From Chloroflexota bacterium (GTDB taxonomy: Bacteria; Chloroflexota; Anaerolineae; UBA4142): 64,000 bases of DNA. Numbering within the stretch: the first letter of the stretch is position 1; each line of letters starts with the position of its first letter. The stretch spans positions 21,673 through 85,672 of the forward strand of contig JACQYF010000122.1 of assembly GCA_016208315.1 (NCBI GenBank), read 5' to 3'. This document shows positions 1,511-24,234 of this stretch, piece by piece. The translations under genes and the position numbers were made by a program. The notes below the pieces were generated by a model. The model did no database searches and was not told where the DNA came from. It saw only the letters and a list, made by a program, of their open reading frames with translations.

Positions 1511-2596
1511 CTACCCAACCACCAAGTGCTGCAACTTGTCTTTGAATACTGCCGTGCTAAACTTTTCCGCGTGCTGGCGAATTACCTGCGGGTCATACTT
1601 GCGGTCGTCGAAGGAGGCCAAGATGGCGGCGAGCGATTGCGCCGTTGGCTCGCGAAAGAGTTCGCCCGTCACGCCTTCGATCATCGTCTCCAGCGCGCCG
1701 CCGCCCCGATACGCGATGACCGGCTTGCCGCACGCGTTCGCCTCGAGTGGGGTGATGCCGAAATCCTCTTCGCCGGGAAAGACGAACGCGCGGCAGCGCG
1801 CCATGAGATCGCATGCGTCGTGGTCCGAGGGCCGGCCGACGAACTTGACGTTGGGCTGGGCCATTTGCTCCAACCGCGCGCGGTCGCGTCCCTCGCCGGC
1901 GATGACGAGGGGGAGCCGCAGCGCATTGAACGCTTGCACCGCCAGGTCAATCCGCTTGTACGGGACGAGCCGAGAGAGAATCAAGAAAAAATCGTCGTGT
2001 GATTTGGCGACGCTGAAGCGGGCCGTGTCCACCGGCGGATAAATGACGACCGAGTCGCGCGCGTAACTGGCGGCGATGCGCTTTTGCACCAGTTCCGAAA
2101 TCGCGACGAACTGCGTCACCCGCTGCGCGGCGCGGCGGTCCCAATCGCGCAGCGACGCGATAAAGAGCGGCAGCACCGCGCGCGGCACGCGCCCGATCCG
2201 TTCGCGTTCGACATAGTCCAGATAATTCCAGAGAAAACGCGCGGGCGTGAATAGGTAGCAGAAATGGCGAGCGTCCACGGGCAAGCGGACGCCGTGCGCA
2301 AAGGCGCTCGTCATGCTCAGGACGCGGTCGTAGCCGCGCAGATCGAGCGATTCAAACGCCCAGGGATAAAGCGGCAGGAACAAACGCTGGTTCGCAATCG
2401 GGATTTTGTCGAGAAAAGAAACGCGAATATCCCAAGTCCGGTAAGCGGGCGGCATCGCCGCGGGCCAATAGGTCGAGGTAAAAACGGGCGCCGTGGGAAA
2501 CAACTCGTGCGCCACTTCTAAGCAGCGTTCGGCCCCGCCGTACTGGTTGAGCCAACTCGCGACGAGCGCCACCCTCGGCGCAGAGGTCCCAGTCAT
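1511..2596 (-). CDS. glycosyltransferase family 4
   Basis: MTGTSAPRVALVASWLNQYGGAERCLEV...; GEEDFGITPLEANACGKPVIAYRGGG donor-site motif; start moved inward from ORF-track start. Confidence 0.85.
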   Translation of the reverse strand: MTGTSAPRVALVASWLNQYGGAERCLEVAHELFPTAPVFTSTYWPAAMPPAYRTWDIRVSFLDKIPIANQRLFLPLYPWAFESLDLRGYDRVLSMTSAFAHGVRLPVDARHFCYLFTPARFLWNYLDYVERERIGRVPRAVLPLFIASLRDWDRRAAQRVTQFVAISELVQKRIAASYARDSVVIYPPVDTARFSVAKSHDDFFLILSRLVPYKRIDLAVQAFNALRLPLVIAGEGRDRARLEQMAQPNVKFVGRPSDHDACDLMARCRAFVFPGEEDFGITPLEANACGKPVIAYRGGGALETMIEGVTGELFREPTAQSLAAILASFDDRKYDPQVIRQHAEKFSTAVFKDKLQHLVVG

Positions 2597-2671
2597 TGCC
2601 GCTAGTATACCCGAAAGTGCGCGATTTTGCCAAACTCGCCCTTTGGGAGTATACTTGCGCCCGGAACTTTT

Positions 2672-5023
2672 ATGGCTCACCAAAATATCCTGATCCTTGA
2701 AGACCATCCCGAACTGTGCGCCCAGATTCGCCAGATTCTGGTAAAAGCTGGCTATCAAGTTCAGGTCGCGGCGACCGGCGCGGACGCCGTGGCCACCGCG
2801 CGCCGCCACGCCTTTGATCTCCTCGTCGCAGATATCTATCTCCCCGATTTCTCCGGCATCGAGGCCTTTCAACGCATTCGCACCTACCGCCCGGATTTGG
2901 CGGGGATCGTCATCACGGGTTACAGCACGTGGGAAATGGCGATGGACGCGCTGCGCGTCGGCTTTGTCGGGTTTCTCGTCAAGCCGTTCGTGCCCGAGCA
3001 ACTGGTCGCGGCGGTGGTCAGCGCGCTCGAGCAGGAGAAACTCCGGCGTGAGAACGCGCGCCTGAACGCACTCGTGCCGCTCTACGAACTCTCGCGCGCA
3101 TTCATCGGCACGGTCGAGCTAAACGAACTGCTGGACCGCATCGTCACAACCGCGCAGCAGGAAACCAAAGCCGAGGTCGTGTCGCTGATGCTGCTTGACG
3201 AGGACCGCCGGGAGCTGGGCATCGCCGCGGCGACCGGCTTGGCGCCCGACGTGATCGAACGGCAAAAGCGCGTGTTGGGCAGCGGCATCGCCGGGCACGT
3301 CGCGGAAACGGGCCAGCCGGTCATGATCGCCGAGGGCATGACGCTCGATCCCGCCATTCGCAAGATGCTGACGGGCCGCTCGGAAATCGTCTCCGCGATT
3401 TCGCTGCCAATCACCTCACGCGGCCAGGTCATCGGCGTGCTCAACCTGTCACGCATGCGCGGCGGCGAATCGTTCACACCCGGCGATCTCGAACTGGCGA
3501 CCGTGCTCGCGAGCCAGGCCGCGATTTCGATTGATAACGCGCGGCTGTTCAAGCAACTCCGGCTGTTGAGCGATATGAGCCAGTGGCTCGCGCGCTCGAT
3601 GGATTTGAACGAAGCCGTCGAGGCGATCGTGTCCGGGCCGCTGCAATTGGTGGGCGCGCGCGGCGCGGCGTTATGGCTGATCGAGGGCGAGATCGAGCTG
3701 AAGATGGTCAAGCAGCAGGGATTGGAAGATCTCGAATTGCCCAAACTCGCGCGCGAGCAAATTGCCGAGGGCTTTAGCGCGGACCGCAGCGGCGGCTGGC
3801 TAACTATTCCCCTCCGGCACGGCGACAAGGACCTTGGCGCGCTCACCATCCGCACGTTCACCCCGAAACCGCCGAGCGAGGAACGCCTGGGCTTGCTGCG
3901 GACCCTCGCGCACGCGGCCAGCGCGATCGTCGAGACGCACCGCTTGCGCGCGCGCGAGTCTACGGCCTTTCGCGAAGTGGACCGCGCCGTGCGTTCGAAC
4001 CTGAGCGTGCGCCAGCAGATCGAGCACTTGCTCGAACAAATGCTCAACGCGTGCGAGGCCGAGTGCGGCGCGATTTTCTTGTGGGAACCGGAACGCGACC
4101 GCCTCGACATGTGGGTGACGTGCGGCCGGCCCGTACGCGAAGATTGGGCGCGCGTCATCATCCACGAAGGCCGCGCCGGTTTTCTCACCGACGAGCAAGT
4201 GGGCGCCGAAGTGGCCATGGGCGCGCCGATGCGCGTCGGCGGCCGCATCGAAGGCGCGGTGGTTCTGACCCGCGGGGCGCCGCGCGGCCGCTTTGCGGCG
4301 CGCCAGTTGGATTTATTGTCCACGCTGACGAGTTCGGCGGCCTTGATCGTCCGCAACACCCAGTTGTACGCGCGCTCGGAAGAGGCCGCCATCGCCGAGG
4401 AACGCACGCGCATCGCGCGCGAGATTCACGACGGGCTGGCACAGGACTTGTCGTTCCTCGTCTTGAAGGCGAGCGCGGCGCAGAAACTCCTGGGCCGCGG
4501 CGAAGAGAAACAGCTAGTGCGCGAATTGCGCGAGATCTCCGACCAATTGCGCCAGGACGCGCGCGAAGTGCGGCGGGTAATTTTCGCGCTGCGCCCGCTC
4601 GACATTGAAGCGCTGGGCTTTTTGCCCGCGCTGGAAAAATTCGTCAAAGAATTCGCGCAGGCCAACGATATCGAAACGGAATTCGCCGTCGAGGGAGACG
4701 TGAGCCATCTCTCGCCGAAATTGGAAACGGCGCTGTTCCGGCTCACGCAAGAGGCCCTCAACAATATTCGCAAGCACGCGCGCGCCAAACACGCCTCGGT
4801 GCGGCTGGAGCGCAACGACGGCGGCAATGCGCGCCTGGGCGTGCAGGACGACGGCTGCGGCTTTGAGGTCGAGAAGGCGCTGCAAGCGGCGCGGACGCGG
4901 GGGAGTGTGGGCCTGGTGCAGATGCGCGAGCGCGCCGAGCGCGCGGGCGGGACATTCAAGATCACGTCGTCACCCAACGCGGGGACGTGCATCGAAGTGG
5001 AATTACCGGTTCGGGAACTGTGA
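2672..5023 (+). CDS. hybrid REC-GAF-GAF-HisKA_3/HATPase sensor histidine kinase
   Basis: N-terminal receiver (ILILEDHPELCAQIRQIL), GAF repeats, EERTRIAREIHDGLAQDL H-box, HATPase (NNIRKHARAKHASVRL). Confidence 0.85.
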   Translation: MAHQNILILEDHPELCAQIRQILVKAGYQVQVAATGADAVATARRHAFDLLVADIYLPDFSGIEAFQRIRTYRPDLAGIVITGYSTWEMAMDALRVGFVGFLVKPFVPEQLVAAVVSALEQEKLRRENARLNALVPLYELSRAFIGTVELNELLDRIVTTAQQETKAEVVSLMLLDEDRRELGIAAATGLAPDVIERQKRVLGSGIAGHVAETGQPVMIAEGMTLDPAIRKMLTGRSEIVSAISLPITSRGQVIGVLNLSRMRGGESFTPGDLELATVLASQAAISIDNARLFKQLRLLSDMSQWLARSMDLNEAVEAIVSGPLQLVGARGAALWLIEGEIELKMVKQQGLEDLELPKLAREQIAEGFSADRSGGWLTIPLRHGDKDLGALTIRTFTPKPPSEERLGLLRTLAHAASAIVETHRLRARESTAFREVDRAVRSNLSVRQQIEHLLEQMLNACEAECGAIFLWEPERDRLDMWVTCGRPVREDWARVIIHEGRAGFLTDEQVGAEVAMGAPMRVGGRIEGAVVLTRGAPRGRFAARQLDLLSTLTSSAALIVRNTQLYARSEEAAIAEERTRIAREIHDGLAQDLSFLVLKASAAQKLLGRGEEKQLVRELREISDQLRQDAREVRRVIFALRPLDIEALGFLPALEKFVKEFAQANDIETEFAVEGDVSHLSPKLETALFRLTQEALNNIRKHARAKHASVRLERNDGGNARLGVQDDGCGFEVEKALQAARTRGSVGLVQMRERAERAGGTFKITSSPNAGTCIEVELPVREL

Positions 5024-18898: not shown

Positions 18899-19873
18899 AT
18901 GACCAAGCGCGTGTTGGTTTCTGGCATAACGGGCCAGGATGGCGGCTATCTCGCCGAGTATCTTTTGGAGCAAGGATATGAAGTGATCGGTATGGTGCGC
19001 CGCACCTCGACGATCAATTTCGAGCGCATTCAACACATCCAGGACAAAATCTGCATCGTGCAAGGCGACTTGCTCGACCAAGTGTCGTTGATTGATATTC
19101 TGCGCGAGCATCGTCCCGACGAGGTCTATAATCTGGCGGCGCAGTCGTTCGTGCCCACGTCGTTCAAACAACCGGTGCTGACCGGCGAATTCACCGCGCT
19201 GGGCGTGACGCGGATGCTCGAGGCGATTCGCATCGTCAATCCCCAAATCCGGTTCTATCAAGCTTCGAGTTCGGAAATGTTCGGCAAAGTGCAGCAAGTA
19301 CCGCAGACCGAAAAGACGCCGTTCTACCCGCGCAGTCCGTATGGCGTGGCAAAACTTTACGGGCATTGGATTACCGTCAATTACCGCGAGTCGTACAATA
19401 TGTTCACGGTTTCGGGCATACTGTTCAACCACGAGAGTCCCCGCCGTGGCTTGGAATTCGTAACTCACAAAGTCACCTATCATGCGGCCAAGATCGCGTT
19501 GGGGCTAGCCGACAAACTGCCGCTGGGTAATCTTGACTCGCAGCGCGATTGGGGCTGGGCGCCCGACTACGTACGCGCGATGCATCTCATGTTGCAGCAA
19601 GACCATCCGGAAGATTACGTCATCGCAACCGGGCGCACCCATTCCGTGCGCCGTTTGTGCGAGGTCGCCTTCGGCTGTGTGGATTTGGATTGGCAGCGCT
19701 ACGTCTACGTGAATCCGAACGATCTGCGCCCCGCCGACGTGGACCTCCTCATCGGCGACGCGAGCAAGGCGCGCAAGGTATTGGGCTGGGAGCCGAGCGT
19801 CACCTTCGAGGAGATGATCGAGCGCATGGTGCAGGCCGACCTCGCGGCGTTGAAAAAGGCGCACCATCTGTAG
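18899..19873 (+). CDS. gmd: GDP-mannose 4,6-dehydratase
   Basis: [57 protein letters not shown]. Confidence 0.95.
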
Positions 19874-19882
19874 GAGCAGTTC

Positions 19883-20668
19883 GTGAATGCGCGTGTCAGG
19901 AAAATCATTGCCGCGTTGAAACGGTATGACCCAGAGCGTGTCATCCTTTTTGGTTCTACCGCGCGTGGCGATGCGGACCGATATAGCGACATTGACATTG
20001 TCGTCATTAAAGATACGCCGAAACGTTTCCTGGATCGCCTCGGAGATGTTTACGATTTGATTCAGCCGGATTTCGCGCTGGATGCGCTTGTCTACACGCC
20101 GAAAGAGTTCACTGAAATGCGGGCGCGCCGGAACCCGTTTGTCGAACAGGTGCTCCGCGACGGACAAGTGGTCTACGAGCGCGCGCGCGGCAACGTACAC
20201 CAAAGAGTGCTTCCGCCGCAAGGAGGCCCCGGTATGAAAAAAGTAGAAGCAGAACAAGAAGGTCGGCGATGGTTGGAGCAGGCGCAATCGGATCTGGCTG
20301 TCGCGAAATGGAACGAAGAGGGCAAGTTCCATTCTGCGGCCTGCTTCTGGTCTCAGCAAACGGCGGAAAGAGCACTCAAAGCGTTTCTCTATTATTCGGG
20401 CAAACGACGCGTCGTAGGTCATTCGGTTCTGGAACTTGCAAAGGCGTGCGGACGCTTGGACAAAGATTTCAAGCCCCTCGTGAATCGGGTCGCGCCTTTG
20501 GATCGTTATTACATTCCCACCCGCTATCCGAATGGACTTCCCGGCGGAGTTCCGGCGCAGGTATACCAAGCCGACGACGCCCGCGATGCGCTCAATTTGG
20601 CAGAAGAAACAGTGATTATGGTAGCAAACAAGATTCCACCTGCGCCCCCGGCCGAACAAGACGAATGA
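19883..20668 (+). CDS. MNT nucleotidyltransferase - HEPN fusion protein
   Basis: GSTARGDADRYSDID (GSx10DxD) then MKKVEAEQEGRRWLEQAQSDLAVAKW...QQTAERALKAFLYYSGKRRVVGHSVLELA HEPN domain. Confidence 0.85.
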   Translation: MNARVRKIIAALKRYDPERVILFGSTARGDADRYSDIDIVVIKDTPKRFLDRLGDVYDLIQPDFALDALVYTPKEFTEMRARRNPFVEQVLRDGQVVYERARGNVHQRVLPPQGGPGMKKVEAEQEGRRWLEQAQSDLAVAKWNEEGKFHSAACFWSQQTAERALKAFLYYSGKRRVVGHSVLELAKACGRLDKDFKPLVNRVAPLDRYYIPTRYPNGLPGGVPAQVYQADDARDALNLAEETVIMVANKIPPAPPAEQDE

Positions 20669-22023
20669 CCGATCAGACCGCCAAGCTCTTCGGCACCGAC
20701 GGCATCCGCGGGGTTGCGAACGAGTGGCCGCTGACGCCCGAATTCATCACGCGCATCGGGAGCGCGATTGGGCAGGCGCTCAAAGGCAATGGCACGCGAC
20801 CGCTCGCGCTGATTGGGCGCGATACGCGGCTCAGCGGCGAGATGATCGAGAACGCGCTCGCCGCGGGCTTGATGTCGCAAGGGTTTGATACGCTGCACCT
20901 CGGCGTGCTGACGACGCCGGGCATCGCGTTTCTTACGCATACACGCCAAGCGCGCTGCGGCATTTCGATTTCCGCATCGCACAATCCATTCGAAGATAAT
21001 GGCATCAAAGTTTTCGGGCCTGACGGATTCAAGATTCCCGACGAGCGCGAGAACGAAATCGAAAAGCTGGCCCAGTCGGCGAACAATGACAAGTACGCTG
21101 CCGAGTCCCTCGGTCGCCGCCGCGATGAAACCCAACCGCTGGACGCCTATGCGGATTTCCTGCTCGGCGCGGTCAACCGCCAACCGATCTTGCAGGGGCA
21201 GTGCGTCGTCGTGGACTGCAACAACGGCGCAACCTTCGATCTCGCGCCCCGCGTCCTGCGCGAACTGCGCGCGCAAGTGATCGCGCTCAACGACAAGCCC
21301 GACGGCGTCAACATCAATCGCGGCTACGACTCGCTCGAACCCAAGCTGCTGCGCGAGACCGTCTTGCGCGAGCGCGCGAACTGGGGCGTCCAATTCGACG
21401 GCGATGGCGACCGCTCGGTTTTCGTGGACGAGCGCGGCAACTACATAGACGGCGATTTCGTACTGGCGATTTTGGCGCGCGATTGGGCCGCGCGCGGCAA
21501 ACTGCGAACGCGCGCGGTGATTTCGACCGTGATGGCGAATATTGGCTTGGAGCGATCGCTCAAGGAAATCGGCGCAACCTTGGAACGGACCGCGGTCGGC
21601 GACCGTTGGGTGACCGAGCGCATGCGGGAGAGCGGCACGCAAATCGGCGGGGAGCAATCGGGCCACATCGTGCTGTTCGACGGCGGGCACACGACCGGCG
21701 ATGGGCTGTATACCGCGATTCGAATGGCCGAGGTGATGGCGCGGCGCAATACGTCGCTTGCCGCGCTCGCGGCGTGCATGACCAGGTATCCGCAGGTTTT
21801 GATCAACGTACGCGTGCCGCGCAAGCCGCCGTTTGAAGAGTTTCCGCAAATCCAGGCGCAGCTCGAACACGCGCAGTCGGCCCTGAGCGACAGCGCGCGC
21901 ATTTTACTGCGCTATTCGGGCACGGAGAACCTCGCGCGGGTGATGATCGAAGGGCGGGACGCGGACGCCATCACGCGCGAGGCGCAGCAAATTGCAAAGG
22001 TGATTCAAGAGACAATAAAGTAA
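20665..22023 (+). CDS. glmM: phosphoglucosamine mutase
   Basis: LFGTDGIRGVANEWPLTPEF; ISASHNPFEDNGIKVFG; start at ATG 20665 (ORF-track start is upstream and spurious). Confidence 0.95.
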   Translation: MTDQTAKLFGTDGIRGVANEWPLTPEFITRIGSAIGQALKGNGTRPLALIGRDTRLSGEMIENALAAGLMSQGFDTLHLGVLTTPGIAFLTHTRQARCGISISASHNPFEDNGIKVFGPDGFKIPDERENEIEKLAQSANNDKYAAESLGRRRDETQPLDAYADFLLGAVNRQPILQGQCVVVDCNNGATFDLAPRVLRELRAQVIALNDKPDGVNINRGYDSLEPKLLRETVLRERANWGVQFDGDGDRSVFVDERGNYIDGDFVLAILARDWAARGKLRTRAVISTVMANIGLERSLKEIGATLERTAVGDRWVTERMRESGTQIGGEQSGHIVLFDGGHTTGDGLYTAIRMAEVMARRNTSLAALAACMTRYPQVLINVRVPRKPPFEEFPQIQAQLEHAQSALSDSARILLRYSGTENLARVMIEGRDADAITREAQQIAKVIQETIK

Positions 22024-23533: not shown

Positions 23534-23812
23534 ATGGCTACGAGACGCTCGAAACGCTCGCAACCTAAGAAGACACGTAAAGCCACGCCCTACCCAACAC
23601 GCGGCGGCGAGAGTCTAGAAAATCGGACTCTCAAGAAACACGAGGACGAATTTCGTGGCAAGAACGTAATCGTCATCGGCACAGAAATCCACCCGATCAA
23701 AAACGGTAAGCAGGCGGCGCGCTTGCTGGAGGAATTGCGCCGGAAATATCCCAAGCGAACGCCGCTACTGACCTATGTTTGGGGAGACGAAACGTACATC
23801 TTATGCCATTGA
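23534..23812 (+). CDS. small DUF5678-like protein
   Basis: HEDEFRGKNVIVIGTEIHPIKNGKQAARLLEELRRKYPKRTPLLTYV; family by eye only. Confidence 0.5.
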   Translation: MATRRSKRSQPKKTRKATPYPTRGGESLENRTLKKHEDEFRGKNVIVIGTEIHPIKNGKQAARLLEELRRKYPKRTPLLTYVWGDETYILCH

Positions 23813-24234
23813 CCCTTCGTTTCCAAGAGATCCCATCCAAGTTGTTTGGACGTATCTATCGTCCTGTTGCAGATGTGGATTTCAAACACAAGACGAGAGA
23901 TATCTGGATTCCTATCCGACTGATCATTGACACCGGCGCCGATTACTCAGTTCTGCCGCGATCCTACGCGCTTCCGTTGGGAATTGACCTAGAACGCGAC
24001 TGCCAAGAGCATTGGACAATCGGGATCGGAGGAAGCGAAAGAATTTTTCTTTATCAGGGTCAGCAAGTACGCCTGGGCAAATATGCGCGCATCGTTCCAG
24101 TGGGATTTCTCGATCGGGAAATCGGCCCTGCGTTGTTCGGACGGCATGAGTTCCTTGAAACGTTCAAAGCCATTTTTGCAGATCATACTGTTAGATTCGT
24201 AAACCCGCGTCCCAGGAAGGCCCGTGCTCGTTGA
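23803..24234 (+). CDS. retropepsin-like aspartyl protease
   Basis: IRLIIDTGADYSVLPRSYA motif; overlaps preceding ORF by 10 nt. Confidence 0.65.
   Translation: MPLTLRFQEIPSKLFGRIYRPVADVDFKHKTRDIWIPIRLIIDTGADYSVLPRSYALPLGIDLERDCQEHWTIGIGGSERIFLYQGQQVRLGKYARIVPVGFLDREIGPALFGRHEFLETFKAIFADHTVRFVNPRPRKARAR

Follow-up and report, generated by a model that had tools for sequence, protein, structure and literature searches.

A single open reading frame in the 64,000-nt window (the whole stretch of DNA that was analysed) encodes both a minimal nucleotidyltransferase (MNT) domain and a HEPN domain, with a Shine-Dalgarno sequence and an in-frame ATG at the junction between them (Table 1). This raises the question of whether the two domains are genuinely and stably joined at this locus and, if so, whether the gene makes one self-contained protein or also a second product, free HEPN, from the internal start.

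Table 1. Positions of the fused MNT-HEPN gene, its parts and its neighbours in the window
Feature	Position	Strand	Remarks
Fused MNT-HEPN gene	19883..20668	+	GTG start, TGA stop 20666-20668; 261 aa
Shine-Dalgarno sequence of the whole gene, AGGAG	19872..19876	+	6 nt 5' of GTG 19883; overlaps gmd stop codon
Minimal nucleotidyltransferase domain, aa 5-101	19895..20185	+	Pfam; AlphaFold pLDDT ~95; fold resembles MntA 7bxo and MNT 8xeo
GSx10DxD, aa 24-38	19952-19996	+	third acid D67
Linker, ~aa 101-119	20183..20239	+	disordered in model; length near-constant, sequence unconserved
Internal Shine-Dalgarno sequence AAGGAGG	20220..20226	+	part paired in predicted hairpin GCUUCC/GGAGGC
Internal in-frame ATG (M118)	20234..20236	+	12 codons 5' of helix-1 Trp130
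HEPN domain PF05168, aa 128-244	20264..20614	+	Pfam, AlphaFold, fold comparison
RRVVGH, aa 175-180	20405..20422	+	H180 in helix 2-3 insert, putative alternative HEPN histidine (PMC3710099)
YYIPTRYP, aa 209-216	20507..20530	+	Y210, R214, Y215 invariant, 34/34 (PMC3710099, PMC7641770)
gmd, GDP-mannose 4,6-dehydratase, upstream neighbour	18899..19873	+	TIGR01472 above cut-off; synteny
glmM, phosphoglucosamine mutase, downstream neighbour	20665..22023	+	TIGR01455 above cut-off

The reading frame is unbroken from GTG to TGA and both domains exceed their Pfam cut-offs, as expected from the preliminary description of a nucleotidyltransferase and a HEPN in one ORF. NTP_transf_2 (PF01909) was matched at aa 5-78 (E 1.8e-11, score 44.7 against a cut-off of 21), with a Polbeta match spanning aa 7-101, and HEPN (PF05168) at aa 128-244 (E 9e-23, 81.1 against 22). 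The nucleotidyltransferase motif GSx10DxD is intact, as it had been described: G24, S25, D36 and D38 are present and invariant in 35/35 relatives in the alignment, and D67 provides the third acid. The AlphaFold model (mean pLDDT 91.5) consists of two confident domains and a disordered linker, with pLDDT below 50 at aa 104-114.

The HEPN domain had been credited with an Rx4H motif, RRVVGH. This string is present, but it is not the HEPN catalytic motif. It sits in the insert between helices 2 and 3, R175 is variable (Arg in 12 of 34 relatives, Glu in 14), and H180 is followed by serine in RRVVGHS without HXY, so that the domain lacks RX4HXY; RRVVGH was rejected as the active-site motif. Judging from the alignment, the conserved HEPN residues are instead H180, kept in 33 of the 34 relatives, and those of YIPTRYP (Y210, R214 and Y215). 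In the model H180 lies between helices 150-171 and 182-192, and R214 ends helix 204-214. The two conserved residues would thus supply the histidine in the helix 2-3 insert and the arginine closing helix 3 that characterize a HEPN RNase. An alternative active site with a histidine in this insert is described for AF0298-like HEPNs (PMC3710099). An alignment of 10 fused proteins shows no variation at H180 and R214 or at G24, S25, D36 and D38; Y210 and Y215 are candidate nucleotidylation tyrosines.

By domain content and motifs, the fused gene is a Class II HEPN/MNT module in one chain. Class II is defined by PF05168/PF01909 or COG2250/COG1708 (PMC7641770, PMC2701414), and its HEPNs too keep a conserved tyrosine (PMC7641770). 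PF05168 beside PF01909, GSx10DxD, a conserved HEPN tyrosine and the lack of RX4HXY were all found here, in a single ORF in place of two separate adjacent genes. An MNT and PF05168 in one polypeptide is also the composition given for MNT-HEPN-T in Table 1 of PMC3710099. The earlier assignment to the MntA/HepT type failed on two defining features: the MntA model NF047752 scored 39.8 bits against a cut-off of 60, and among the Pfam matches the only HEPN was PF05168, with no DUF86/PF08780 HEPN carrying RX4HXY. A reading as HalB or another defence system was likewise rejected, since the HalB equivalog model scored 21.8 bits against a cut-off of 190 and the neighbours are sugar-metabolism genes; PADLOC matches (PDC-S09 and others) cover the NT domain alone.

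The gene lies in a sugar-nucleotide operon, translationally coupled between gmd and glmM, with the glmM start overlapping the fusion stop (ATGA). All fusions of the family f1, to which the window gene belongs, occupy this position, with the sugar epimerase upstream and the phosphohexomutase downstream. In eight relatives of the family gmd directly adjoins glmM, and one of these (G011) belongs to the genus of two carriers, G012 and G013. At the same junction in L098 (G005:C35), ~960 bp with a different ORF, GNAT acetyltransferase-like by eye, replaces the MNT-HEPN gene, which suggests an insertion hot spot in the operon. Three NT/HEPN units are stacked between gmd and glmM in L107 (G031:C18, 193-3489), namely one MNT-HEPN pair, one separate NT-HEPN fusion (939-1733) and one MNT with a cut HEPN. 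In G066 (L063/L106, G066:C285) the split MNT-HEPN pair is followed 3' only by a glmM-like C-terminal piece (residues 391-449) and then the next mutase gene; its glmM appears to have been deleted or moved. Further along the window (23534-24234) an ORF with DUF5678 overlaps one for a retropepsin-like aspartyl protease (PF13650/PF13975); in G008 (L049) both have homologues 3' of the same operon.

The same in-frame fusion was found in three other genomes of f1 from two other genera (G008 from one, G012 and G013 from the other), so that three genera share it in all. The linker, counted from VxY to RRWLEQ, is 29 aa here and 29, 29 and 28 aa in G008, G012 and G013. The assembly that contains the window is a draft of 210 contigs and could in principle have joined two genes by a sequencing or assembly error, but recurrence of the fusion with matching linker length in three other assemblies from other genera makes a frameshift or read error next to impossible, and this reading was rejected. 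Among the f1 fusions per-domain identity is 55-67% and synonymous sites are saturated or near-saturated, so the proposal of a recent fusion was wrong at the species level. Linker pN is ~0.5, whereas the two domains have values of 0.15-0.33, most of them ~0.2; by this measure both domains are under purifying selection, with their conserved residues kept.

In a class-wide search nearly all related pairs outside f1 were two overlapping genes in different frames, and few were fusions. In the split pairs the HEPN starts at an ATG within an MNT Tyr codon or directly behind it (within Tyr-Glu codons), one frame over, with the HEPN Shine-Dalgarno sequence within the C-terminal MNT codons, 8-50 nt before the MNT stop. 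Such overlapping split genes stand next to gmd or glmM in G066 and G031, members of another family, and on the tree these pairs are sisters of the f1 fusions (support 96/93). This shared locus and sister placement imply that the f1 fusion came from an overlapping pair there. The f1 fusion would have arisen through extra junction sequence, ~19 codons relative to the split pairs, which also restored a common frame.

Two relatives carry a truncated HEPN at the gmd-glmM locus while the MNT stays. The third HEPN unit of G031 ends after ~29 codons and continues in frame into glmM (ORF 2032-3489). In G004 ~184 nt of the fused gene are missing between the MNT tail (linker) and HEPN helix 2, so that what is left of the HEPN is in another frame. 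A stop codon separating the domains in relatives had been proposed as evidence that would overturn the fusion; G004 is the only family member with one, and it was rejected as a natural stop because its deletion could derive from either state, so the fusion stands. G004 groups with G013 (support 96/87), which is compatible on the tree both with one fusion followed by deletion and with two fusions. Fusions of the same domains also occur elsewhere in the phylum (f2, G281/G211, G150, G031, G572, G731 and others), and fusion of MNT with HEPN has probably happened repeatedly. Those of f2 (G014, G018) sit on a long branch well removed from the f1 fusions in the tree and probably represent a separate event. 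Two fused relatives, L121 (G339:C56) and L110 (G653:C238), carry two and one stop codons in the search table, and may be pseudogenes or mis-scored split genes.

The internal start is exceptionally strong. AAGGAGG is followed after 7 nt by the ATG, as originally described, and its predicted anti-Shine-Dalgarno duplex of -11.2 kcal/mol exceeds that at the gene's own GTG (-6.5 kcal/mol). These values use the canonical anti-Shine-Dalgarno sequence, because no 16S 3' end was found in the gene's own assembly. Among the 286 in-frame internal ATGs that the long ORFs of the window contain, only one has pairing as strong, and AAGGAGG N4-9 ATG occurs 4 times in the window against 0.40 expected. The ATG is close to the point at which stand-alone HEPN genes of relatives start. 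Within f1, the corresponding site is GGAG-ATG, a weaker Shine-Dalgarno sequence, in G008, GTG with a weak one in G013, and AGA, no start codon, in G012.

A similar signal recurs in fused genes across Chloroflexota. In 34 such genes 40 ATG/GTG codons stand in frame shortly before the HEPN, and 20 of them follow a Shine-Dalgarno match, compared with 5/306 elsewhere in frame and 0/31 out of frame; since many of these genes are paralogues, not every count is independent. The strict count took in-frame ATG/GTG no more than 18 codons upstream of HEPN helix 1 with a Shine-Dalgarno match of at least 5 nt at 4-10 nt. In the first 20 genes (10 first seen and 10 from a new profile search) it gave 9/22 linker starts with a match against 1/166 elsewhere in frame and 0/22 out of frame in the same stretch. 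In 14 further genes, with criteria fixed beforehand, it gave 11/18 against 4/140 and 0/9. The absence of matches at out-of-frame starts speaks against a simple effect of purine-rich linkers. In 14 of the first 20 genes the best Shine-Dalgarno-preceded in-frame ATG/GTG of the whole gene lies just 5' of HEPN helix 1 (sliding p <0.01 each). Relatedness among the genes and coarse p values inflate the combined Fisher value of 6e-15 over the 20 genes; codon shuffling gave a Fisher p of 2e-7 for the same genes. E-values and p values based on such small sets of related genes are to be taken as a ranking and not as exact probabilities.

When all start codons near the linker were compared by a Mann-Whitney test, no significant difference emerged (p 0.62), because most linker start codons have no Shine-Dalgarno match, which leaves the per-gene best site and the strict counts as the informative measures. 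With the peptide held fixed, synonymous resampling did not find the Shine-Dalgarno sequence unusual (window gene p 0.25, cluster Fisher 0.44), and its all-gene value of 0.011 is driven by one paralogous cluster. Codon choice thus adds little to Shine-Dalgarno strength once the linker peptide is given; the test is weak, since the linker can also vary in its peptide. A paralogous group of NT-HEPN genes (L140, L142, L143 and L198-L203, in G731, G797, G809, G877 and G913) has the linker motif RGxGDPV, in most copies with AGA/CGA-GGA codons spelling AGAGGAGA or CGAGGAGA before GTG or ATG, and is the best candidate for selection on an internal Shine-Dalgarno sequence.

The internal signal is, from these counts, real and recurrent. 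The uneven presence in f1 and the weakly constrained linker would alone suggest a relic, but recurrence in other fusions counters this, and the signal may be either a relic of a former gene start or the mark of a maintained second product. The earlier suggestion that one gene could make both the fusion and free HEPN is borne out to this extent: the start is beyond chance and recurs in other fused MNT-HEPN genes.

The comparisons establish the fusion, its age, its fixed locus and purifying selection on both domains. We tentatively favour, with somewhat less than even confidence, a single-chain self-modifying Class II module whose internal start may also give free HEPN. An overlapping mnt-hepn pair between gmd and glmM would have been fused in the family ancestor by the in-frame junction insertion. 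The target of the NT domain would then be one of the conserved HEPN tyrosines, Y210 or Y215, nucleotidylated within a single chain or a dimer, by analogy with MntA, which nucleotidylates HepT on tyrosine (PMC7641770), and this modification would hold in check an RNase or RNA-binding activity of the HEPN involving H180 with R214. Class II modules are abundant and none had been studied biochemically as of 2020 (PMC7641770), so toxicity and tyrosine modification are attributed to them by analogy. The flexible linker would permit in-chain modification, although access of the NT site to either tyrosine within the chain is putative, since a pTM of 0.64 leaves the domain orientation uncertain. Fusion would fix the ratio of the two parts and do away with the free, labile antitoxin that an addiction module requires. 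The strong internal start in this species would probably yield some free HEPN as an added, lineage-variable and non-essential product, with a purpose if the complex resembles that of three HepT to one MntA in the HepT-MntA crystal (PMC7641770); in G012, without the internal start, the fusion alone suffices. Self-modification in one chain has against it the lack of RX4HXY, the view of NT-fused HEPNs in PMC3710099 as usually inactive substrate-binding domains, and truncation of the HEPN with retention of the MNT in G004 and G031. Were both products needed, as in a complex requiring more HEPN than MNT, one mRNA would give the fusion and free HEPN from M118. This we regard as possible but doubtful. 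The exceptional Shine-Dalgarno sequence and ATG near the start of free-standing HEPN genes, their replication in fused genes of other families and classes (9/22, then 11/18), the 3:1 ratio of HepT to MntA (PMC7641770) and the precedent of Cas11b (PMC11899642) all point towards it. Against it, the signal is not conserved in the closest relatives, the linker evolves without visible nucleotide constraint, the non-significant resampling by cluster allows a leftover of a former gene start, the Shine-Dalgarno sequence is partly paired in the predicted hairpin, and several of the 34 genes are paralogues. Extended to the MNT-HEPN fusions of Chloroflexota as dual-product genes, with surplus free HEPN assembling with the fusion to give an unequal ratio in a TA-like complex from one ORF, the proposal seems rather unlikely.

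A position that is fixed between gmd and glmM in several genera, with translational coupling, would also suit a domesticated nucleotidyltransferase, with the HEPN as its substrate-binding or regulatory half, that nucleotidylates an operon protein or small molecule, as do GlnE/GlnD or kanamycin nucleotidyltransferase. An NT domain with a HEPN-like bundle is found in kanamycin and spectinomycin nucleotidyltransferases and in HalB (weak whole-chain matches), and such a role was proposed for fused forms in PMC3710099. We consider it distinctly unlikely, given that whole-chain superpositions are poor, that the fused HEPNs share H180, R214 and the tyrosines with stand-alone ones, in contrast to the loss reported in PMC3710099, and that eight family members have no gene at the site, one of them in the genus of two carriers. 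Patchy presence, the truncated HEPNs of G004 and G031, the GNAT-like gene of G005 and the three stacked units of G031 have the look of a hot spot, and could reflect an ordinary Class II TA-like passenger, inserted at gmd/glmM by chance and being lost, its fusion and Shine-Dalgarno sequence functionless. Conservation of both domains across three genera at saturated or near-saturated synonymous divergence, with linker length kept, makes this very improbable.

With H180, R214 and the tyrosines in place, the operon-fixed fusion offers a one-plasmid test object for whether an NT domain modifies a HEPN in cis. Should the recurrent internal start prove to be in use, it would illustrate how a TA pair becomes one gene and yet keeps a separate toxin subunit.

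Compared with known systems, the fused protein has the two domains of Class II modules, likewise with the MNT in front, as well as their GSx10DxD, HEPN tyrosine and lack of RX4HXY. It differs in that Class II modules are two genes, overlapping in this bacterial class, whereas here one polypeptide has an unconserved linker of near-fixed length. Type VII MntA-HepT shares the MNT fold and GSx10DxD, with the MntA match below cut-off, but comprises two genes and a DUF86 HEPN with RX4HXY in place of one gene and PF05168 without it. Among HEPN structures, 1wol (ST0689), 1ufb (TT1696), 3o10 (sacsin) and 2hsb (AF0298) have the same fold (target TM 0.72-0.85) and are stand-alone or of other architectures; in the model comparison MntA-type NT folds match the NT domain more weakly than 1wol and 1ufb match the HEPN. 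HalB and the aminoglycoside nucleotidyltransferases are likewise single chains with an N-terminal NT and a C-terminal helical part, but the whole-chain match is poor (TM 0.30-0.46, rmsd 8-13). Cas11b, an unrelated protein, is likewise made from an internal in-frame start as a separate C-terminal subunit (PMC11899642); its product has been demonstrated, whereas here the internal start is predicted from its sequence signal. In kind the present gene belongs with the MNT-HEPN-T fusions, which have the same architecture; PMC3710099 already records PF05168 in "standalone versions and fusions to MNT". NT-fused HEPNs are described there as usually inactive substrate-binding domains that have lost their predicted catalytic residues, whereas H180 and R214 are kept here, and the passages cited here make no mention of an internal HEPN start. 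The MNT-HEPN architecture was thus already known, and what is new is an operon-fixed family with its HEPN residues kept and a recurrent internal HEPN start.
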